Below are positions 1 to 9,029 of a stretch of DNA of 64,000 nucleotides, piece after piece; position 1 is the stretch's first letter, and the number at the start of each line of letters is the position of its first letter. Origin of the DNA: Kineococcus xinjiangensis (GTDB lineage: Bacteria; Actinomycetota; Actinomycetes; Actinomycetales; Kineococcaceae); assembly GCF_002934625.1 (NCBI RefSeq), contig NZ_PTJD01000002.1:248001-312000 (forward strand), in the 5' to 3' direction. Below the pieces are notes generated by a model. The model made no database searches. It was not told the origin of the DNA and saw only the letters and a program-made list of their open reading frames with translations. A program made the translations under genes and the position numbers.

Positions 1-883
1 CCGGGGTGCGCAGCTCGTCCGTGGTGGGGAACCCGAGGGGGCCGGCCTCCCAGCCCAGCCGCTCCCACGCCTCGCGGATCAGCCCGTGCACCTCGTGGGC
101 GCCGGTGCGGGCGGTCCAGTAGATCGAGCCGCCGTCGAAGTGCTGGAACACCCCGCCCTCGGCGGGCGTCGGCCGCTCCGGCGTCGTCTGCTCACCCAGC
201 ACACCGGCGGGACCACCGAGGGAGGTGTGCTTGCTGCCGATGGCCGTGCAGTCCTTCAGCGCAGGGGCGCCGTGGGAGTTGGTGCGCTGGTCCGTCGCCG
301 ACGTCGTCGTGCAGTTCCACGACGGGATGCGCCACGGCGGGGTGCACGTGACGACCCGGCACCACACCGGGCCGGTGCAGCGCACGTCCTGGTTGCACTG
401 CCCGTAGCGGAACTCGTTGCAGCACACCTTGCGCTGGTCGCACTGCCCCTTGGGACCGCAGCCGCAGGAGCAGTCCCGGCAACCCTCCCCGCAGTACAGC
501 TTCCGGCCGTCGCAGCCGCAGGAGCAGTAGCTGTGGCAGTCGATGTAGTAGCGCGCGGAGCCGCAGCAGAACCCGGAGCCGTCCGACTTCCACCAGCCGC
601 CCACCAGCGCCCCGGGAGGGCAGCGGTTGACGCCGCCGTTGATGGTGGCGCAGAACACCGTGTAGCCGGAGGTGCAGGTGGAGTCGATGCCGCAGACGGC
701 GGCGTAGGCGGAGACGGGCCGGGTGATGTACGTCCACGGCGCGACGGCCACCGCCGAGCCCACCACCGCGGTGCGGCTGAGGAACCCGCGGCGGCTGGAG
801 CGGCCGGCGAGCAGGCCGGAGAGGCGGTCCACCAGCCGCTCGGAGAGCGAGGCGGCGCGGGGGCGCTCGTCGAGGGTGGTCAC
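1..883 (-). CDS. Tat-exported Cys-rich MauA-like protein with LGFP module (3' end cut by window)
   Basis: The GTG start at 883 follows a GAGGA ribosome site. Residues 26-60 form a twin-arginine signal (SSRRGFL, RR at 31-32, then a hydrophobic stretch ending near VSAYA). The mature part holds about 24 cysteines, clustered as FCCG, YCSCGC and CRDCSCGC, with NRCPPG followed by GGWW. I recognise this as the actinobacterial relative of methylamine dehydrogenase light chain (MauA), whose Trp residues form the TTQ cofactor. The C-terminal part, from about residue 240, matches an LGFP repeat (GGVFQHFDGGSIYW, GPLGFPTTDE), a module seen in secreted envelope proteins. It is the last visible gene of a minus-strand cluster with MauE- and MauD-like genes that could make its disulfides. 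No heavy chain (MauB) is in view. TTQ formation and enzyme activity are inference; a structural wall protein is equally possible. Confidence 0.75.
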   Translation of the reverse strand, partial: MTTLDERPRAASLSERLVDRLSGLLAGRSSRRGFLSRTAVVGSAVAVAPWTYITRPVSAYAAVCGIDSTCTSGYTVFCATINGGVNRCPPGALVGGWWKSDGSGFCCGSARYYIDCHSYCSCGCDGRKLYCGEGCRDCSCGCGPKGQCDQRKVCCNEFRYGQCNQDVRCTGPVWCRVVTCTPPWRIPSWNCTTTSATDQRTNSHGAPALKDCTAIGSKHTSLGGPAGVLGEQTTPERPTPAEGGVFQHFDGGSIYWTARTGAHEVHGLIREAWERLGWEAGPLGFPTTDELRTP

Positions 884-920
884 GGGGTTCCTCCTGCTCG
901 GGTGGAGTTCCGCGGGACGC

Positions 921-1388
921 TCATCGCGACGCGTCCGCGTCGAGGTCGAGCGTGGCGAGCACGTCGTTGAGGCGGTTGACGAGCGCGGCGCGGCGGGCGT
1001 GGCTGCCCAGCACCACGTAGAGGCAGAAGGCGCGGCCGCCCTCCTGGAAGAACCACTGGCAGCCGGACTGCCCGGGGATGCTGCGCTGCAGGCGGTTCGG
1101 GGCGAAGTCCGCGACGGTGGGCCGAGGGCGCCCCTTCGTCGCGAACAACGGGGTGCCGACGGCCTCCGGCCCGTACTCGAAGAGGGAGACGAACAGGTCC
1201 TCCTCGCTGAGCAGGGGCGTCACGCCACCGCCGAAGTCGCCGCGCTCCTCGGGGAGGGCCACGGTGGCCGCGTGCAGCACGGGCCGCCGCTCGGCCCCCA
1301 CCTCCTGGCCCTCGCGGCGGCGGCGGGAGATGCGCACCTCCCAGCCGCGGGGTGCGTCGACGGCCATGCCGTGGGCGCGCAGTTTCAC
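921..1388 (-). CDS. hypothetical protein in the MauDE-like cluster
   Basis: This is a 155-residue protein with a GTG start at 1388 behind a strong GGAGGGG site. It has no signal peptide or membrane segment. It mixes beta-like and charged stretches, with one central Cys (SGCQWFF) and another in AFCLYVVLG. The sequence ends LNDVLATLDLDADASR. I do not recognise the family. The gene lies 37 bases upstream of the Cys-rich Tat protein and about 80 bases downstream of the CcdA-like membrane gene, all in the same direction, so it is probably co-transcribed. A cytoplasmic accessory or chaperone role for the exported protein fits the context but is only inference. Confidence 0.7.
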   Translation of the reverse strand: MKLRAHGMAVDAPRGWEVRISRRRREGQEVGAERRPVLHAATVALPEERGDFGGGVTPLLSEEDLFVSLFEYGPEAVGTPLFATKGRPRPTVADFAPNRLQRSIPGQSGCQWFFQEGGRAFCLYVVLGSHARRAALVNRLNDVLATLDLDADASR

Positions 1389-1467
1389 GGTGCCCCTCCT
1401 TCGATGGTGGAACCGGGTGCGGTGCAGGCGGGTGCGGTGCAGGCGGGTGCGGTGTCCGCCGGTGCGT

Positions 1468-2079
1468 TCACGACAGGGCTCCGGTCAGGGCGAGCTGGGC
1501 GGCGGCGGCCAGCACGAGGACGCCGGAGGTGGTGGCCGCCACCGCGCGGCCGGTCCCGGCGTGCGCCTCCAGCCGCCGGTGCACCGCCACCAGGCGCTCG
1601 GGCGTGGTGACCCGGCGCATCGAGAGCACCGGCAGCGCCCGCGCGGCCCCGAACGCCAGCCCGACGACCGCCCCGCCCGCCGGGCCGCCCGTCAGCACGG
1701 CGAGGGCCAGGGCGGCGTAGAGCAGCGGCGACGTGACGATCGTGACGACGCCGACGCCGAGCTGGACGCCGTAGCCGAAGCCGTACACCCAGCCCCGGTA
1801 GCGGTGCAGCCAATCCTCGTCGACCTGGCGGTGCCACGTGGGCAGCGCCCGCAGCCGGCCCGTCTCCACCGCGAGCGCCACCACCGCCAGCGCCGCGAGG
1901 CCCGCCAGCGCCACCACCGCGCCCGCGGGGTGCTCCAGGGGCAGCAGCCAGCCGACGAGGCCGAGCAGGGCACCGAGGGCGGTGCCGCCGAGGGCGGACC
2001 CCAGCAGGTGCGCCGCTGCCGTCACGGGCCAGCGGCCGGCGCGTCCCCGCTCACCGAGCGGGGTGATGCTCGAGAGCAT
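1468..2079 (-). CDS. polytopic membrane protein, possibly MauF/CcdA-like
   Basis: This 203-residue protein has about five or six hydrophobic segments (roughly residues 20-45, 52-72, 100-125, 128-150 and 178-200). The stretch YRGWVYGFGYGVQLGVG followed by VTIVTSP, and the later GLAFGAARALPVL, resemble the glycine-rich helices of CcdA/DsbD or MauF proteins, which carry thiol reducing power across the membrane. No obvious Cys pair is present in these helices, so electron transfer through this protein itself is doubtful. It sits between the thioredoxin-like gene and the 155-residue protein in the same orientation. The family assignment is inference from sequence character and context. Confidence 0.7.
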   Translation of the reverse strand: MLSSITPLGERGRAGRWPVTAAAHLLGSALGGTALGALLGLVGWLLPLEHPAGAVVALAGLAALAVVALAVETGRLRALPTWHRQVDEDWLHRYRGWVYGFGYGVQLGVGVVTIVTSPLLYAALALAVLTGGPAGGAVVGLAFGAARALPVLSMRRVTTPERLVAVHRRLEAHAGTGRAVAATTSGVLVLAAAAQLALTGALS

Positions 2080-2088
2080 CGACTCGCC

Positions 2089-2169
2089 TCAAGGGGACCA
2101 GGTGGCGCGCAGCGCGGCGAGGGCCGCGGTCGGCACACCCGCCACCAGCGCCCACGTCGAGAGGTCCAC
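2089..2169 (-). CDS. possible 26-residue hydrophobic peptide
   Basis: In the gap between the thioredoxin-like gene and the membrane gene, a GTG-started frame encodes VDLSTWALVAGVPTAALAAL and ends RATWSP. It stops nine bases before the ATG of the membrane gene. A hydrophobic helix followed by Arg and a Trp-Ser-Pro tail resembles other small membrane peptides. The upstream site (GGGCGGGACGG) is weak and GC3 alone is not decisive in a genome this GC-rich. It may be only leader sequence. Confidence 0.25.
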   Translation of the reverse strand: MDLSTWALVAGVPTAALAALRATWSP

Positions 2170-2190
2170 CGCCGCCGCCGTCCCGCCCGC

Positions 2191-2985
2191 TCAGCCCTGC
2201 GCCCGCGGCAGCTCGGCGACCTCTTCGGCGGTCAGCTCCAGGCTCGGGTGACCGGGTGCGATGCCCGCCGCCAGCAGCTCGCGGTCGGCGCGGGCCTCGC
2301 GGTGCGCGCCGTCGCCGGTGTCCTCGCCGTGGCCGTGGCGGTGGGCGGCGATGTCCCGGGCCCGGTCGCCGGTGGCCTCGGTGACGAGGCGCTCCACCTG
2401 CTCCCAGCTCGTCGCGCTGCCCTCGCCCGCGACCCGCCCGGCCGTGCCGTCGACGAGCACGAAGTACGGCGAGCCCGGCACCTCGTAGGCCTCCCACACG
2501 GCGGTGGACATCACGACGGCCAGGCCGGGGGCGGCGAGCTTCTCCACGGCGGTGGCGCTCTCCCGCTCGGTGCCCTGGGTGACCACCACGAGGCGGGTGC
2601 CCGCCGGCAGGCCCAGCGGCGTGCGGTCGCGGAAGCGCTCCCAGATCCCGTGGCAGGTCAGGCAGCCGCTGGAGAGGAACGCCAGCAGCGTGTCCGGCCC
2701 GGCGGTGACGGAGAACTGCACGCTGTCGCCGTCGGGGGTCTCCCCGCTGACGTCCACGGCCCCCGCGCCGGTCACCCCGGCCGGCTCCAGGACCCCGGGG
2801 CGCACCCCGAAGGGCACGTCCACCGGCCCGGCGGCGCGCGGCGCGGTGTCCTCGCGGCCCGCGCCCAGCTCGTGCAGGGAGCGCAGGATCTCGGCGTGGC
2901 TGCGCAGCAGCCCCACGACCAGCACGCCCAGCAGCGCCACCGCCACGGTCAGGCCGACGAGGAGGACGGTCACCAGCACGGTCAC
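2191..2985 (-). CDS. membrane-anchored thioredoxin-like protein, MauD-like
   Basis: This 264-residue protein has an N-terminal membrane anchor (residues 1-27) and a soluble thioredoxin-like domain facing outward. The active-site motif is Cys-Leu-Thr-Cys at residues 108-111 (SSGCLTCHG), followed by a typical thioredoxin core including a GSPYFVLVDG strand with the cis-Pro. MauD proteins are membrane-tethered thiol-disulfide factors needed to assemble the Cys-rich light chain MauA. I chose GTG 2985, four bases after the stop of the MauE-like gene and behind GGAG. An in-frame opening up to 3069 lies in a proline-rich region and only overlaps the neighbour. The C-terminal 50 residues are charged and His-rich. 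The context supports a role in disulfide formation in the Cys-rich Tat protein. Confidence 0.8.
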   Translation of the reverse strand: MTVLVTVLLVGLTVAVALLGVLVVGLLRSHAEILRSLHELGAGREDTAPRAAGPVDVPFGVRPGVLEPAGVTGAGAVDVSGETPDGDSVQFSVTAGPDTLLAFLSSGCLTCHGIWERFRDRTPLGLPAGTRLVVVTQGTERESATAVEKLAAPGLAVVMSTAVWEAYEVPGSPYFVLVDGTAGRVAGEGSATSWEQVERLVTEATGDRARDIAAHRHGHGEDTGDGAHREARADRELLAAGIAPGHPSLELTAEEVAELPRAQG

Positions 2986-2989
2986 GAGC

Positions 2990-3592
2990 TCACGCTCCAG
3001 AGGCGGTCGGGGAGGGCGTACGGGCGGGCGTGCGGGAGGGGACCGCGCGGGCGGCGGCAGGGGCGGCACGGGCCGGAACGGGGGTGCGGGCGGCCACCAG
3101 CCGGGGCAGCGCCGTCAGCACCTGCAGCGCGAGCCACCACACGAGCGCGGCGCTGGCCGCGACCGCCACGGCCGCCGCCGGACCGAGGGCCAGCACGGCC
3201 GGCACGCCCGCGGCCCCGCCGGCCGCGACCGCCGCGCACACCACCGCCGCGACCGCGGTGAGGACCGCGTGCGCCCAGGTCGGCGGCAGGTCCGGCTCGC
3301 CGAAGCAGCCGCAGGAGCTCAGGGGCCGCCCGCGCAGCAGGGCGAGCAGGAGGAACCCCGTGAAGGCGGCGTACGCCAGCGCCGTCAGCCCCGCCGCGGC
3401 AGGCAGCCCGGCCAGTGCCGCCACCGCCAGCACGACCTCACCCGCACCCAGCAGCCGCACCAGGAGCACCGACGACGGCAGCCCCTGGGTGCGCAGCGCC
3501 TGGGACGTCGACTGCGGGCGGCGCAGCTTCGCCACCCCCGCACCCAGCAGGAGGAGGCACCCCGCCAGGAACGGGACGAGCAGCGCATGCAC
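2990..3592 (-). CDS. MauE/DoxX-type membrane protein
   Basis: This 200-residue membrane protein opens the cluster. It has four clear helices (about residues 3-20, 43-62, 66-87 and 107-160) and a Cys pair in the SCGCFGE motif at residues 94-96. That motif is characteristic of MauE-family proteins, which act with MauD in light-chain maturation and are distantly related to VKOR/DsbB-type redox partners. The C-terminal 40 residues are Ala/Pro/Arg-rich and probably cytoplasmic. The stop is followed four bases later by the GTG of the thioredoxin-like gene, so the two are translationally linked. The ribosome site before ATG 3592 is weak. Confidence 0.8.
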   Translation of the reverse strand: MHALLVPFLAGCLLLLGAGVAKLRRPQSTSQALRTQGLPSSVLLVRLLGAGEVVLAVAALAGLPAAAGLTALAYAAFTGFLLLALLRGRPLSSCGCFGEPDLPPTWAHAVLTAVAAVVCAAVAAGGAAGVPAVLALGPAAAVAVAASAALVWWLALQVLTALPRLVAARTPVPARAAPAAARAVPSRTPARTPSPTASGA

Positions 3593-3649: not shown

Positions 3650-4630
3650 TCAGCGCCGCGACAGCAGCTCCTCCTCGATCTTCGCGGGCAGCCCGTGGAC
3701 GTCCCGGTCGGCGCGCTGCGGCGGGACGCCCTCCCGCCGCATCCAGTCCCAGGTGTCCGCGACCGTCTCCGCCACCGGCCGGCACACCAGCCCCGTGGCC
3801 GCCGCCCGCGCGGTGTCCACCGCGAAGAAGCCGGAGAACTCCCCCGCCTCGGGAACCCAGCAGGGCAGGTGCGTCCACGGCTGCGCGCCCGCCGCCTCGA
3901 GCTCCGCCTCCGGGATCCACACCAGGTCCGCGTCCGAACCCGTCACCCGCACGCAGGCGCCGAGCAGCTCCCCGGTGGTGGCGTGGCCGGGGCGGGAGGC
4001 GACGTCGACGGGTCCCGTCAGCCCCGACCCCAGGCCGGAGAGCATCCAGGCCGCCAGGTCGCGCACGTCGACGAACTGCAGCGGCCGCCCGGGACGGCCG
4101 GGGGCGACGATCCGCCCGCCGCGGGCGGTGCGGCGCAGCCACCACGGCAGGCGCCCGATGTCCTCGTGCGGTCCGAGGACGAGCCCCGCCCGGGCCAGCA
4201 GCGCCGCCGGGAAGGACTGCAGCACACCGAGCTCCGCGCCGCGCTTGAGCGCCGCGTACTCTCCGTCCACCGCGTCCGGGTCGCCGTCCACGAGCGGGGA
4301 GCCCTCGTCGACGTGCTGTCCCCAGGTGTAGACGGAGCCGCTGGAGACGTAGCCGTAGCGCCCCGCGCGGCCGGAGAGCGCGCGCGCCGCGAGGGTCGCC
4401 ACCGCGGGCGCGCCGGACCAGGTGTCGGCGACGGCGTCCCACTCCCCCGGGCCCAGCGCGGCGGCCAGGACGGCGGGGTCGCCGCGGTCGGCGTGCAGCG
4501 TGCGCACCCCCGGCGGCAGGTTCCCGGTGACGCCGCGGTGCAGCGCCGTGACGTCCCAGCCGCGGACCAGCGCCTCCGCCACGAGGGCGCGCCCCACGAA
4601 GCGGGTCCCACCCAGCACGAGCAGCCTCAT
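3650..4630 (-). CDS. NAD-dependent epimerase/dehydratase family protein
   Basis: This is a 326-residue extended-SDR protein. The N-terminus carries the nucleotide-binding motif GGTRFVG (consensus GxxGxxG). A catalytic-type serine region (YVSSGSVY) follows, then an unusual active site: the expected YxxxK is replaced by EYAALK at about residue 127 (Tyr and Lys are present with three residues between). The central PLQFVDVRDLA is the usual substrate-domain motif of this family. The C-terminal part (WDWMRREGVPP) resembles reductases acting on sugars or isoflavone-like substrates. The substrate cannot be told from sequence. It stands alone between the MauE-like gene and the diguanylate cyclase, both on the same strand. 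Confidence 0.8.
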   Translation of the reverse strand: MRLLVLGGTRFVGRALVAEALVRGWDVTALHRGVTGNLPPGVRTLHADRGDPAVLAAALGPGEWDAVADTWSGAPAVATLAARALSGRAGRYGYVSSGSVYTWGQHVDEGSPLVDGDPDAVDGEYAALKRGAELGVLQSFPAALLARAGLVLGPHEDIGRLPWWLRRTARGGRIVAPGRPGRPLQFVDVRDLAAWMLSGLGSGLTGPVDVASRPGHATTGELLGACVRVTGSDADLVWIPEAELEAAGAQPWTHLPCWVPEAGEFSGFFAVDTARAAATGLVCRPVAETVADTWDWMRREGVPPQRADRDVHGLPAKIEEELLSRR

Positions 4631-6634: not shown

Positions 6635-6650
6635 CTTCACATGCGTGAAG
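6635..6650. promoter_or_regulatory. inverted repeat, likely TetR operator 1
   Basis: CTTCAC and GTGAAG form perfect 6-base arms around ATGC. The site lies in the region between the TetR gene and the MMPL gene, just upstream of a TTGACA hexamer at 6655-6660. It is placed to block transcription in either direction. Confidence 0.55.
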
Positions 6651-6654
6651 GGTC

Positions 6655-6683
6655 TTGACAAGTTCGTCCACGCAGTGTTCGTT
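6655..6683 (+). promoter_or_regulatory. candidate promoter for MMPL gene
   Basis: A consensus -35 hexamer TTGACA (6655-6660) is followed at 17 bases by the weaker -10 candidate TTCGTT (6678-6683). The downstream inverted repeat overlaps this -10. The local base composition is much richer in A/T than the flanks. Confidence 0.45.
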
Positions 6684-6713
6684 AAGCCTCGTAACGGCGT
6701 GACGACGCTTAAC
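6681..6713. promoter_or_regulatory. long inverted repeat, likely TetR operator 2
   Basis: GTTAAGCCTCGT (6681-6692) and ACGACGCTTAAC (6702-6713) are inverted arms of 12 bases with one mismatch, separated by nine bases. The repeat overlaps the presumed -10 and start site of the MMPL gene, the usual place for a TetR repressor. Confidence 0.6.
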
Positions 6714-6746
6714 GCTTCTGACGATGACTCACCTGAGGAACGTGCC

Positions 6747-9029
6747 ATGACCGATCTCGCCACCCGCCCCGGCCCCGCTGCCCCGCAGGCCCCGCCCCCA
6801 CCGCGCCCCGGCCCGCTCGGGCGCCTCGCCCGCCTCGCCCACCGCCGGCGCGGCACCGTCGTCCTCGCCTGGATCGCGGCCCTCGGCCTCGCACTCGGCC
6901 TCACCAGCGCCTTCGGAGGGCAGTTCACCGCCGACTACTCCGCACCCGGCTCCGACTCCAGCGCAGCCGCCGACCTGATCGAGGAGCGCTTCCCCGGGCT
7001 CGCCGGCACCGAGCTCGGCCTCGTCGTCCACGCCGACTCCGGGATCGCCTCCGTCCGCGACGACGTCGAGGCGCTGCTGCGCGAGGTGGGCGCCGCGCCG
7101 CACGTGGCGGGCGTCGAGGACCCCTTCGCCACCCCGGGCGCGATCTCCGCCGACGGCAGGACCCTGCTCGCCACCGTCCGCCTCGACGTCGACGTGCCCG
7201 ACGACATGCCGGTCGCCGACAGCCTCCACATCGTCGAGCTGACCCGGGCCGCCGAGGCACCGGGGATGCAGGTCGCCGTCGGCGGGGAGCCCGTCTACAA
7301 CGCCGAGCGCGGCGAGATCGGCTCCGAGGGCATCGGGCTGATCGCCGCCCTCGTCATCCTGCTGCTGATGTTCGGCTCGGTGGTGGCCGCCGGGCTCCCC
7401 CTCGTGGTCGCGGTCGCCGGACTGGCGGTGAGCAGCGCCCTCACCAGGGCCCTCATCGCCCTCGTCGACGCCCCCGACTGGTCGACCTCCCTCGCCACCA
7501 TGATCGGGATCGGGATCGGGATCGACTACGTCCTGCTGATGGTCACCCGGTTCCGGGAGTGGCGCGTCGCCGGGCTCGACCCGGAGGCCGCGACCGTCGC
7601 CACCCTCGACACCGCCGGCCGCTCCGTCCTCGTGGCCGGCACGACGGTCGTCGTCAGCATGCTCGGCCTGTTCGGGATGGGCCTGTCCTTCATGCGCGGC
7701 GCCGCGCTGGTGACGATCCTCGGCGTGGTCGTCGTCGTGACCGCGAGCCTCACCCTCTTCCCCGCGCTGCTCGGCTACCTCGGCCGCCACGTCGACCGGC
7801 TCCGGCTGCCGCTGCGCCGCTCCGCACCCGCTGCGGGGCACCGCGTCGAGGGCCGGCCCGGCCGGGGCTGGCAACGCTGGAGCGCACAGGTCCAGCGCCA
7901 CCGCGTGCTCGCCACCGTCGCCGGGGTGGGCATCCTGCTGGCCTTCGCCGCGCCCTTCCTCGGCGTGCGGTTCGGCTTCCCCGACGCCGGCAACGGCCAG
8001 GAGCACATGTCGACGCGCCAGGCCCACGACCTCGTCGCCGACGGCTTCGGCCCCGGCGCCAACGGGCCCCTGGTCCTGGCCGTGGACCTCGCCGGCGCCG
8101 ACGGCGAGGCCGCTCTGGCCGCGCTGGGCGGTGCGCTGCCCGACGTCCCCGGCATCGCCGCCGTGACCCCGCCGCGGGTCGACGCCACGGGGCGGGCCGC
8201 GCTGCTCACCGTCGTCCCGGAGACCGGCCCGCAGGAGGCCGCCACCGAGGACCTCGTGCACCGCCTCCGGGAGGACCTGCCGCAGACGCTGGCGGGCACG
8301 GGCGCCGAGGTCCACGTGGGCGGGGCCACCGCCGCCTCCCTCGACAGCACGGCGAACACGGCGAGCCGCCTGCCGCTGCTCATCGTCAGCGTGGTGGCCC
8401 TGTCGATGCTGCTGCTGCTCGTGGCGTTCCGCAGCGTGGCGGTGGCGGTCCAGGCGGCGGTGATGAACCTGCTGTCGGTGGCCGCCTCCTACGGGGTGGT
8501 CGCCCTCGTCCTCCAGGGCGGCTGGGCGGGCCGGCTCGTCGGCATCGACACCGAGACGCCGCTGCCGGCGTTCGTGCCCGTCCTGATGTTCGCGGTGCTG
8601 TTCGGCCTGTCCATGGACTACGAGGTGTTCCTCGTCAGCCGGATGCGCGAGGGCTGGGTCCGCACCGGGGACAGCGCCCTCGCGGTCACCGAGGGGCTGG
8701 CCGCGACCGCCCGGGTCATCACGGCGGCCGCCGCCATCATGATCGCGGTCTTCGCGGCCTTCGTGCCGAGCCCGGACATCGTCCTGAAGGTCATCGGCAT
8801 CGGCATGGCGGCGGCCATCCTGCTCGACGCCACCGTGGTGCGCCTGCTGCTCCTGCCGGCGGCGATGCACCTGCTCGGGCGCGCCACCTGGTGGATGCCC
8901 CGCACCCTGGAGCGGGTCCTGCCGGAACTGGCGGTGGAGGGCCGCCCCACCGACCACCTGCCGGCGCAGGGCGCGGCGGCCGTGCCCGCTCCGCCCGCCG
9001 CGGCCGCGCCGGTGCCCGCCCCCCGCTGA
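6747..9029 (+). CDS. MMPL-family (RND) membrane exporter
   Basis: This 760-residue protein has the twofold RND layout. Each half has one N-terminal helix, an extracytoplasmic domain (about residues 60-200 and 420-530) and a five-helix bundle. Conserved helix motifs include IGIGIDYVLLMVTRFRE in the first half and FGLSMDYEVFLVSRMREGW in the second, the Asp-Tyr pairs that relay protons in MmpL proteins. These export lipids, siderophores or drugs by proton antiport. ATG 6747 follows GAGGAA. It is paired with a divergent TetR repressor, which favours a detoxification role over envelope-lipid assembly, but the substrate is unknown. A hairpin terminator follows. Confidence 0.9.
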   Translation: MTDLATRPGPAAPQAPPPPRPGPLGRLARLAHRRRGTVVLAWIAALGLALGLTSAFGGQFTADYSAPGSDSSAAADLIEERFPGLAGTELGLVVHADSGIASVRDDVEALLREVGAAPHVAGVEDPFATPGAISADGRTLLATVRLDVDVPDDMPVADSLHIVELTRAAEAPGMQVAVGGEPVYNAERGEIGSEGIGLIAALVILLLMFGSVVAAGLPLVVAVAGLAVSSALTRALIALVDAPDWSTSLATMIGIGIGIDYVLLMVTRFREWRVAGLDPEAATVATLDTAGRSVLVAGTTVVVSMLGLFGMGLSFMRGAALVTILGVVVVVTASLTLFPALLGYLGRHVDRLRLPLRRSAPAAGHRVEGRPGRGWQRWSAQVQRHRVLATVAGVGILLAFAAPFLGVRFGFPDAGNGQEHMSTRQAHDLVADGFGPGANGPLVLAVDLAGADGEAALAALGGALPDVPGIAAVTPPRVDATGRAALLTVVPETGPQEAATEDLVHRLREDLPQTLAGTGAEVHVGGATAASLDSTANTASRLPLLIVSVVALSMLLLLVAFRSVAVAVQAAVMNLLSVAASYGVVALVLQGGWAGRLVGIDTETPLPAFVPVLMFAVLFGLSMDYEVFLVSRMREGWVRTGDSALAVTEGLAATARVITAAAAIMIAVFAAFVPSPDIVLKVIGIGMAAAILLDATVVRLLLLPAAMHLLGRATWWMPRTLERVLPELAVEGRPTDHLPAQGAAAVPAPPAAAAPVPAPR

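Follow-up and report, generated by a model that had tools for sequence, protein, structure and literature searches.

The first genes of a 64,000-nucleotide stretch of the Kineococcus xinjiangensis genome (the window; positions 248001-312000 of contig C2, in a genome of 4.6 Mb) raise the question of what the disulfide machinery of methylamine dehydrogenase (MADH) does beside a target protein that has no MADH heavy chain in view. Five open reading frames (ORFs) run on the minus strand from window position 3592 to 1, encoding MauE-like, MauD-like and MauF-like proteins, an unnamed protein of 155 residues, and a Cys-rich target with a twin-arginine translocation (Tat) signal (Table 1). The original prediction for this DNA had described five genes in one direction, namely a MauE-like protein with CGCFGE, a MauD-like protein with CLTC, a polytopic membrane protein, a protein of no known kind and a 24-Cys Tat protein, and all of these ORFs were confirmed. 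The operon probably makes a disulfide-rich, cofactor-less surface protein, in which the N-terminal domain is either distantly related to the MADH light chain (MauA) or closely resembles it in structure, with MauE, MauD and MauF as the disulfide machinery of the protein. The MauF identity, phylum-wide conservation, paired cysteines, variable surface modules and propeller neighbours are new here. With a client protein that lacks the tryptophan tryptophylquinone (TTQ) cofactor, the heavy chain MauB and MauG, disulfide folding would become separable from the making of the cofactor, in a form testable in another phylum; in the excerpted text of the decRiPPter study, the disulfide role of MauE is called speculative and the function of MauD unclear (PMC7794033).

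Helper genes and their conserved neighbourhood

The three membrane proteins resemble the MADH helpers to different degrees. The MauE-like protein belongs to the MauE family (PF07291, 56.8 bits against a cut-off of 27). The MauD-like protein is a homologue that falls outside the MauD equivalog (TIGR02661, 25.2 bits against a cut-off of 188.6), and a single BLAST comparison aligned it with MauD at 25% over 106 residues (1e-7). The polytopic protein scores with DsbD_2 (PF13386, 1.4e-5, 25.5 bits against 24.9) and, in a single BLAST comparison, with MauF (39% over 72 residues, 2e-6). Hidden Markov models (HMMs) of the helpers, built solely from actinobacterial loci, were run on 680 frames of 12 public control loci (mau and aau clusters, plus Thermomicrobium); they reached Paracoccus denitrificans MauF at 7.2e-20, MauE at 1.8e-12 and the MauD genes at 2.5e-12 at best, each model finding its own gene alone at E below 1e-3. 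By these sequence comparisons, the polytopic protein is a MauF homologue.

The arrangement recurs widely. A scan of species genomes yielded 113 stretches with the pattern, of which 95 are relatives of the operon; the best 80 (identity 47-87%) were kept and, together with the window, make up the 81 loci considered below. Iterated HMMs, applied with truncated loci included, matched MauE in 64 loci, MauD in 73, MauF in 62, the 155-residue protein in 76 and LGFP repeats in 54. The string CGC is present in all 64 matched MauE frames. The MauF-like protein is not likely to act alone as a thiol carrier, since the window protein has no Cys and the matched part has none in 33 of the 62 matched loci, the window among these. 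Complete five-gene sets were found in 38 of the 46 loci with room for them (the target ORF being preceded by at least 4 kb and followed by at least 2 kb), on a single strand in 37, a recurrence that indicates more than chance co-occurrence. Within the window's own order, 17 of 297 genomes carry the family, its own genome included (20 matched, 3 discarded); the weak matches L019-L021 (E 3e-4 to 8e-4, with internal stops) and L023 were judged to be due to chance and dropped. Across the phylum, the Cys-rich domain occurs in 30 of 396 sampled genomes, and no match was found in a plasmid collection at E up to 0.01. Among the best 80 of 95 relatives, the named sequences nearest to the target come from Kineococcus species, and targets 85-88% identical occur in genomes that share the window's family code under a different genus code.

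Two of the encoded protein families lie outside Pfam and NCBIfam, namely the Cys-rich domain and its 155-residue neighbour; the few matches listed are single members at 0.0047 or weaker. The 155-residue protein has no export signal by eye, and its AlphaFold2 model has a predicted local distance difference test (pLDDT) score of 93.4. No Foldseek match to this model reached E 0.001, the best being MucB at 0.059. VIA gave 3hlz_A as the best match (Z 6.8), followed by Tsi3, MucB/RseB, LpqN, PsbP, EagT6 and Mog1 (Z 5.0-6.3), with the warning that Z below 8 may reflect a common arrangement. From this predicted fold and its place in the operon, the protein is proposed to be a dedicated export chaperone.

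Light-chain likeness, cofactor and cysteines of the target

The target had been predicted to be MauA-like, and this claim gained weak but specific support from structure and profile searches. PF02975, the light-chain family, had no match at E up to 1 in the target or in 79 family members (control 3.6e-54). An AlphaFold2 model of the Cys-rich domain, built from 79 sequences, reached pLDDT 87 and a predicted template-modelling score of 0.84. Among 350,542 PDB chains, Foldseek returned eight matches with E up to 10, ranked first by the MADH light chain 1mda_L, in itself a weak match (E 2.4, probability 0.06, template-modelling scores 0.28/0.36, 19% identity). VIA, which re-aligned Foldseek's 26 top-ranked chains and so is not independent of it, gave Z of at least 2 for four chains, all of them light chains of MADH or aralkylamine dehydrogenase (AADH; Z 2.1-2.4 over 73-89 residues); the tool cautions that even a Z of 2.4 may mean little. 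The absence of matches from either program was not counted as evidence. Profile comparison with hhalign gave a probability of 1.3% for 16 family members against 6 light chains and of 15.8% for 79 against 9; against 14 light chains the score was 25.5 (probability 18%; reversed profile 12.3), a value that no shuffled profile reached, whether all columns were shuffled (200 runs, best 24.2) or the Cys columns were left untouched (200 runs, best 24.6). The motif CPPG...W...DC also occurs in the same order in the target family and in MauA-type light chains. The likeness to MauA is faint but specific. The Cys-rich domain probably has a light-chain fold, as the model suggests; no single value is significant, and the fold is favoured because the specificity arose in a search blind to the operon.

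Alternatively, the domain may not be related to MauA by descent, with MauE, MauD and MauF recruited to a convergent disulfide-rich surface protein. We regard such convergence as possible, if rather unlikely. It would account for the empty PF02975 search, for the failure of the target-family HMM to match MauA in the control loci at E up to 1, and for hhalign probabilities of 1-18% with the best shuffled scores close to the real one. It fits less well with the rank of the light chains, which come first among all PDB chains searched and stand alone at Z of at least 2 among those re-aligned, and with a profile score above all 400 shuffles, half of them with Cys columns fixed. The conserved motif order and the presence of the same helper trio as in MADH, joined in some lineages by a propeller partner, likewise argue for the light-chain reading.

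Whether the target carries a quinone depends on two tryptophans. In MauA, W57 and W108 form TTQ, and D76 lies near it. The original prediction had proposed aligning the target with the TTQ tryptophans and had allowed for either a disulfide-rich or a quinone-cofactor protein. The first position was recovered, in that the CPPG...W57 of MauA aligns with CPPG...WW in the target family; the pair (W97-W98) is present in all 81 scored rows, and an Asp precedes the next Cys in 81 of 82 rows (the 82 include two fragments from locus L046). The second was not: column 135 is variable (7 W, 32 V, 15 H, 10 A, 17 others), and the alternative column 129 has W in none of the 81 rows. In the first 16 sequences, Trp stands at the position of W174 in all eight from the window's family and in none of the remaining eight; the window protein itself has W174, so that the two-Trp pattern breaks down for the family and not for the window protein taken alone.

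MauB and MauG were also sought. No MauB gene follows the target in the operon. A search for mauB, as suggested in the original prediction, found no match to PF06433 in the window's own genome, in 4 relatives or in 14 further carriers, with a Paracoccus plasmid as control (2.4e-212); neither PF06433 nor PF02975 matched any of 14 control genomes, and positive controls were therefore added. The claim that the disulfide machinery lies beside an exported Cys-rich target with no heavy chain in view is supported for homologues of MauE and MauD, and extends to MauF. MauG-type proteins (PF03150) were not found in the own genome, with matches in two control genomes, and in the 14 other carriers there was one weak match, in G660 (2.2e-4), which by sequence may conceivably be a MauG-like protein. 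HMMs for MauB and MauG found no match in the 81 loci at E up to 10; the MauB model recovered its protein in five control loci, one of them outside its training set (1.3e-101), and the MauG model in the two loci used to build it.

With the second Trp unconserved, TTQ is unlikely in the target, and the TTQ reading was set aside on this ground together with the failure to find MauB and MauG; a quinone cofactor is unlikely as judged from the alignments. A version in which the target bears TTQ or another Trp-derived quinone, and an unidentified partner replaces MauB and MauG, could draw on the invariant Trp pair and Asp, which match W57 and D76 of MauA, and on the W174-Cys of the eight sequences from the window's family. 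Against the 7 of 81 and 0 of 81 rows with the second Trp, the lack of a MauG-type protein in the own genome, the one weak match in the other carriers and the absence of a detected MauB, it is very improbable. Some other modified tryptophan could still be present at the invariant Trp pair and Asp. Of the two outcomes foreseen, a disulfide-rich exported protein is thus favoured over a quinone protein.

The cysteines of the domain behave as disulfide partners would. In 70 of 80 rows the aligned stretch has an even number of Cys, and certain columns are gained or lost together: columns 98 and 114 (both in 77 rows, neither in 3), 24 and 169 (both in 52, neither in 28), 15 and 100 (both in 60, single in 1), 96 and 113 (62 and 1), 54 and 174 (29 and 2), and 76 and 93 (49 and 1). 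In window numbering these correspond to C140-C155 (98-114), C70-C142 (15-100), C138-C154 (96-113), C107-C212 (54-174) and, less certainly, C122-C135 (76-93), and columns 24 and 169 are both Ala in the window target (A79, A208). On a tree built from two further proteins of the operon (73 loci, traits available for 72 rows), supported independent changes were matched by the partner in 1.0/1, 5.0/5, 2.0/2, 1.8/2, 3.0/3 and 1.0/1 cases for the six pairs, about 13.8/14 overall, and 30 cross pairs, each formed from one member per pair, gave at most 1.8/5 and a largest share of 0.4. The pairs were picked from the same data, so the tree tests the independence of events and not the choice of pairs, and no single pair can reach p 0.05. 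Disulfides are the preferred reading because the columns change pairwise, as disulfides would. Metal binding by the Cys cluster, suggested by the very high Cys content and several CC and CxC motifs, is scarcely credible for an exported domain whose operon encodes CGC and CxxC thiol proteins and whose Cys columns are lost in pairs.

Surface modules and propeller neighbours

The complete target gene (L001 15405-16883, within a 20-kb stretch around the operon) encodes 492 residues with 24 Cys, arranged as a signal, a Cys-rich domain of 150 residues and four LGFP wall-binding repeats. The Tat signal matches TIGR01409 above its cut-off (1.2e-3, residues 30-59), and in a single BLAST comparison the leader showed weak similarity to that of MauA (4e-4). 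The repeats are of LGFP type (PF08310, 298.5 bits over four stretches). Phage matches to the target comprise 63 records, the five listed all falling on residues 201-294 and annotated as lysins. In the available text on MytA of Corynebacterium, the LGFP domains form a stalk that binds peptidoglycan-arabinogalactan (PMC11299179). The target shares with MytA-type proteins the tandem C-terminal LGFP repeats, and differs in having an N-terminal Cys-rich domain where they have a mycoloyltransferase.

The C-terminal module varies among lineages. LGFP repeats are present in most loci, SLH in L109 (8e-25), FG-GAP in L094 (6e-13) and a ricin-type lectin in L101 (4e-14), and the C-terminal repeats of L058, L099 and L105 have no Pfam name. 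In five loci (L042, L045, L047, L063, L066) the protein ends within five residues of the domain end. Precisely these five share an extra gene directly after that for the 155-residue protein, whose product appears secreted from the look of its N-terminus and, in the four scanned, is a PD40 beta-propeller (1e-24, 2e-23, 4e-30, 1e-6); the L047 propeller also matches FG-GAP above its cut-off, and that of L066 SLH below it. An HMM from the five propellers found no further match among the other 76 of the 81 loci. The phylum scan added four stand-alone domains (L139-L142): L139 and L140 have a propeller in the same position (7.5e-38, 1.5e-37), and the contig of L141 stops inside MauF, leaving the propeller position out of view. 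A propeller thus adjoins seven of nine stand-alone domains, with one contig too short and one case, L142, to the contrary; a strict rule that every stand-alone domain has a propeller is broken by the latter. In L090, L093 and L096, with tails of 29-45 residues, no propeller was found. Homology of the PD40 propeller to MauB is not claimed (hhalign probability 2%, no significant profile match), and the parallel with MauB-MauA is therefore one of plan and not of demonstrated descent. Selenocysteine was considered for four divergent matches with an in-frame TGA (G353, G557, G410, G332), which proved to be ordinary stops ending stand-alone domains.

A working model can be assembled from these observations. 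The target would be synthesized with a Tat signal and held in an export-competent state by the cytosolic Mog1/PsbP-fold protein. Outside the cell, its disulfides would be made and sorted by MauE, MauD and MauF, with a maximum of 12 in the window target; this client relation is inferred from synteny and the pairing of Cys columns. No TTQ would be made, and the C-terminal LGFP repeats would anchor the protein on the cell wall, as the MytA domains suggest. In other lineages the domain would be fused to other surface repeats or stand alone, then usually beside a secreted beta-propeller of the same operon, much as MauA is found with MauB. The role of the surface module is most likely structural or ligand-binding. 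More tentatively, the family may represent a widespread actinobacterial, cofactor-less surface assembly on the MADH plan, in which a light-chain-fold domain is combined, either in trans or in cis, with a beta-propeller or another surface module and is folded by MauE, MauD and MauF. If so, these helpers would serve the light-chain fold in general, as a folding system that can be separated from TTQ chemistry and is perhaps older than it. The family also offers a possible evolutionary path to a propeller-plus-light-chain enzyme.

Several results weigh against parts of this model. Among the 46 loci with room, MauF is absent from 8, MauE from 3, and MauD and the 155-residue protein from 1 each, and L101 lacks all four helper genes within about 5.5 kb. 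The chaperone role leans on a fold common to many unrelated proteins. Some cysteines lie outside clean pairs, as columns 76, 89 and 93 have almost the same distribution, and Cys in columns 2, 11 and 16 is found in one and the same set of 10 rows. Finally, in L142 (1-480, minus strand), the gene directly after that for the 155-residue protein is a second thioredoxin-like gene (CRAC), followed by the contig end.

Known systems resemble the operon in part. Like mau and aau clusters, it has homologues of MauE, MauD and (in the mau type) MauF beside a small, Tat-type exported Cys-rich protein, and some of its relatives also have a secreted beta-propeller. It differs in that neither MauB nor MauG was found and the second TTQ Trp is absent in most members; the target is also larger, with more Cys and fused wall-binding repeats, and the propeller, where present, is of PD40 type. 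A literature search found no description of this operon among the matches listed. The nearest prior mention among them concerns candidate clusters for ribosomally synthesized and post-translationally modified peptides (RiPPs) in Streptomyces, where decRiPPter, in its excerpted text, reports homologues of MauE, and in one family of MauD as well, next to Cys-rich products in clusters that have no other mau genes (PMC7794033). Those products are putative precursors that contain 8 Cys or more, and MauF and LGFP targets go unmentioned in that excerpt (PMC7794033). A RiPP reading of the present target is unlikely, the target being a large Tat protein with repeats.

A plasmid of Thermomicrobium roseum (NC_011961.1, L030 4652-10950) presents a related arrangement, in which three MauA-like Cys-rich proteins lie close to hypothetical proteins that look propeller-like (both of those scanned match PQQ_2 weakly) and mauB is not annotated nearby, as in the operon described here. 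It differs from the operon in that the two light chains scanned match PF02975 (2.5e-5, 9.3e-8), all three keep both TTQ Trp positions, and there are no fused surface repeats. This set is possibly an undescribed TTQ-type enzyme set.

Coordinates and flanking genes

Table 1. Features of the operon, in window coordinates.
Feature	Position	Strand	Evidence or remark
MauE-like membrane protein, 200 aa, SCGCFGE	2990..3592	-	PF07291 E 3.8e-15; HMM to P. denitrificans MauE 1.8e-12
MauD-like membrane-anchored thioredoxin-type protein, 264 aa, CLTC (GCLTCH)	2191..2985	-	TIGR02661 9.8e-6, below cut-off
MauF-like polytopic membrane protein, 203 aa, no Cys	1468..2079	-	PF13386, BLAST and HMM to MauF
Unnamed cytosolic protein, 155 aa, Mog1/PsbP/LpqN-like predicted fold	921..1388	-	AlphaFold2, Foldseek, VIA
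Target gene, 5' part	1..883	-	Whole gene reaches L001 15405 (genome C2:247405)
Tat signal region SSRRGFLSRTAVVGSAVAV, long n-region	704..883	-	TIGR01409
24-Cys MauA-like domain, residues 62-212	248..700	-	W97-W98, D115 and many Cys conserved; W174 not
First LGFP repeat, residues 229-281	41..199	-	PF08310; remaining repeats beyond window

The start of the MauD-like gene was set from its homologues at GTG 2985 and not at 3069, to which the ORF itself is open; this leaves 4 bases between the mauE stop and the MauD-like gene. Beyond the target end lies a convergent ORF of GGDEF/EAL type (L001 13151-15358, identified by eye).

Some loci depart from the common form. In Kineococcus rubinsiae (L046 6320-8274), and also in L010/L022, the target is split over two frames within the Cys-rich domain, reflecting either a frameshift or a sequencing error. 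One metagenome-assembled genome (JAUJNH; L096 and L101) carries the Cys-rich domain twice. A more divergent branch of the family, L139-L143, has MauE, MauD and MauF matches in all five loci; four of its domains stand alone, and L143 has FG-GAP-like repeats by eye.

Directly upstream on the operon strand is an NAD-dependent epimerase (window 3653-4630, minus strand; PF01370 1.3e-9). Farther on, a long plus-strand ORF (6645-9029) resembles an MMPL/RND-type transporter by eye, and a TetR-type regulator ORF (6588-5869) is divergent from it.

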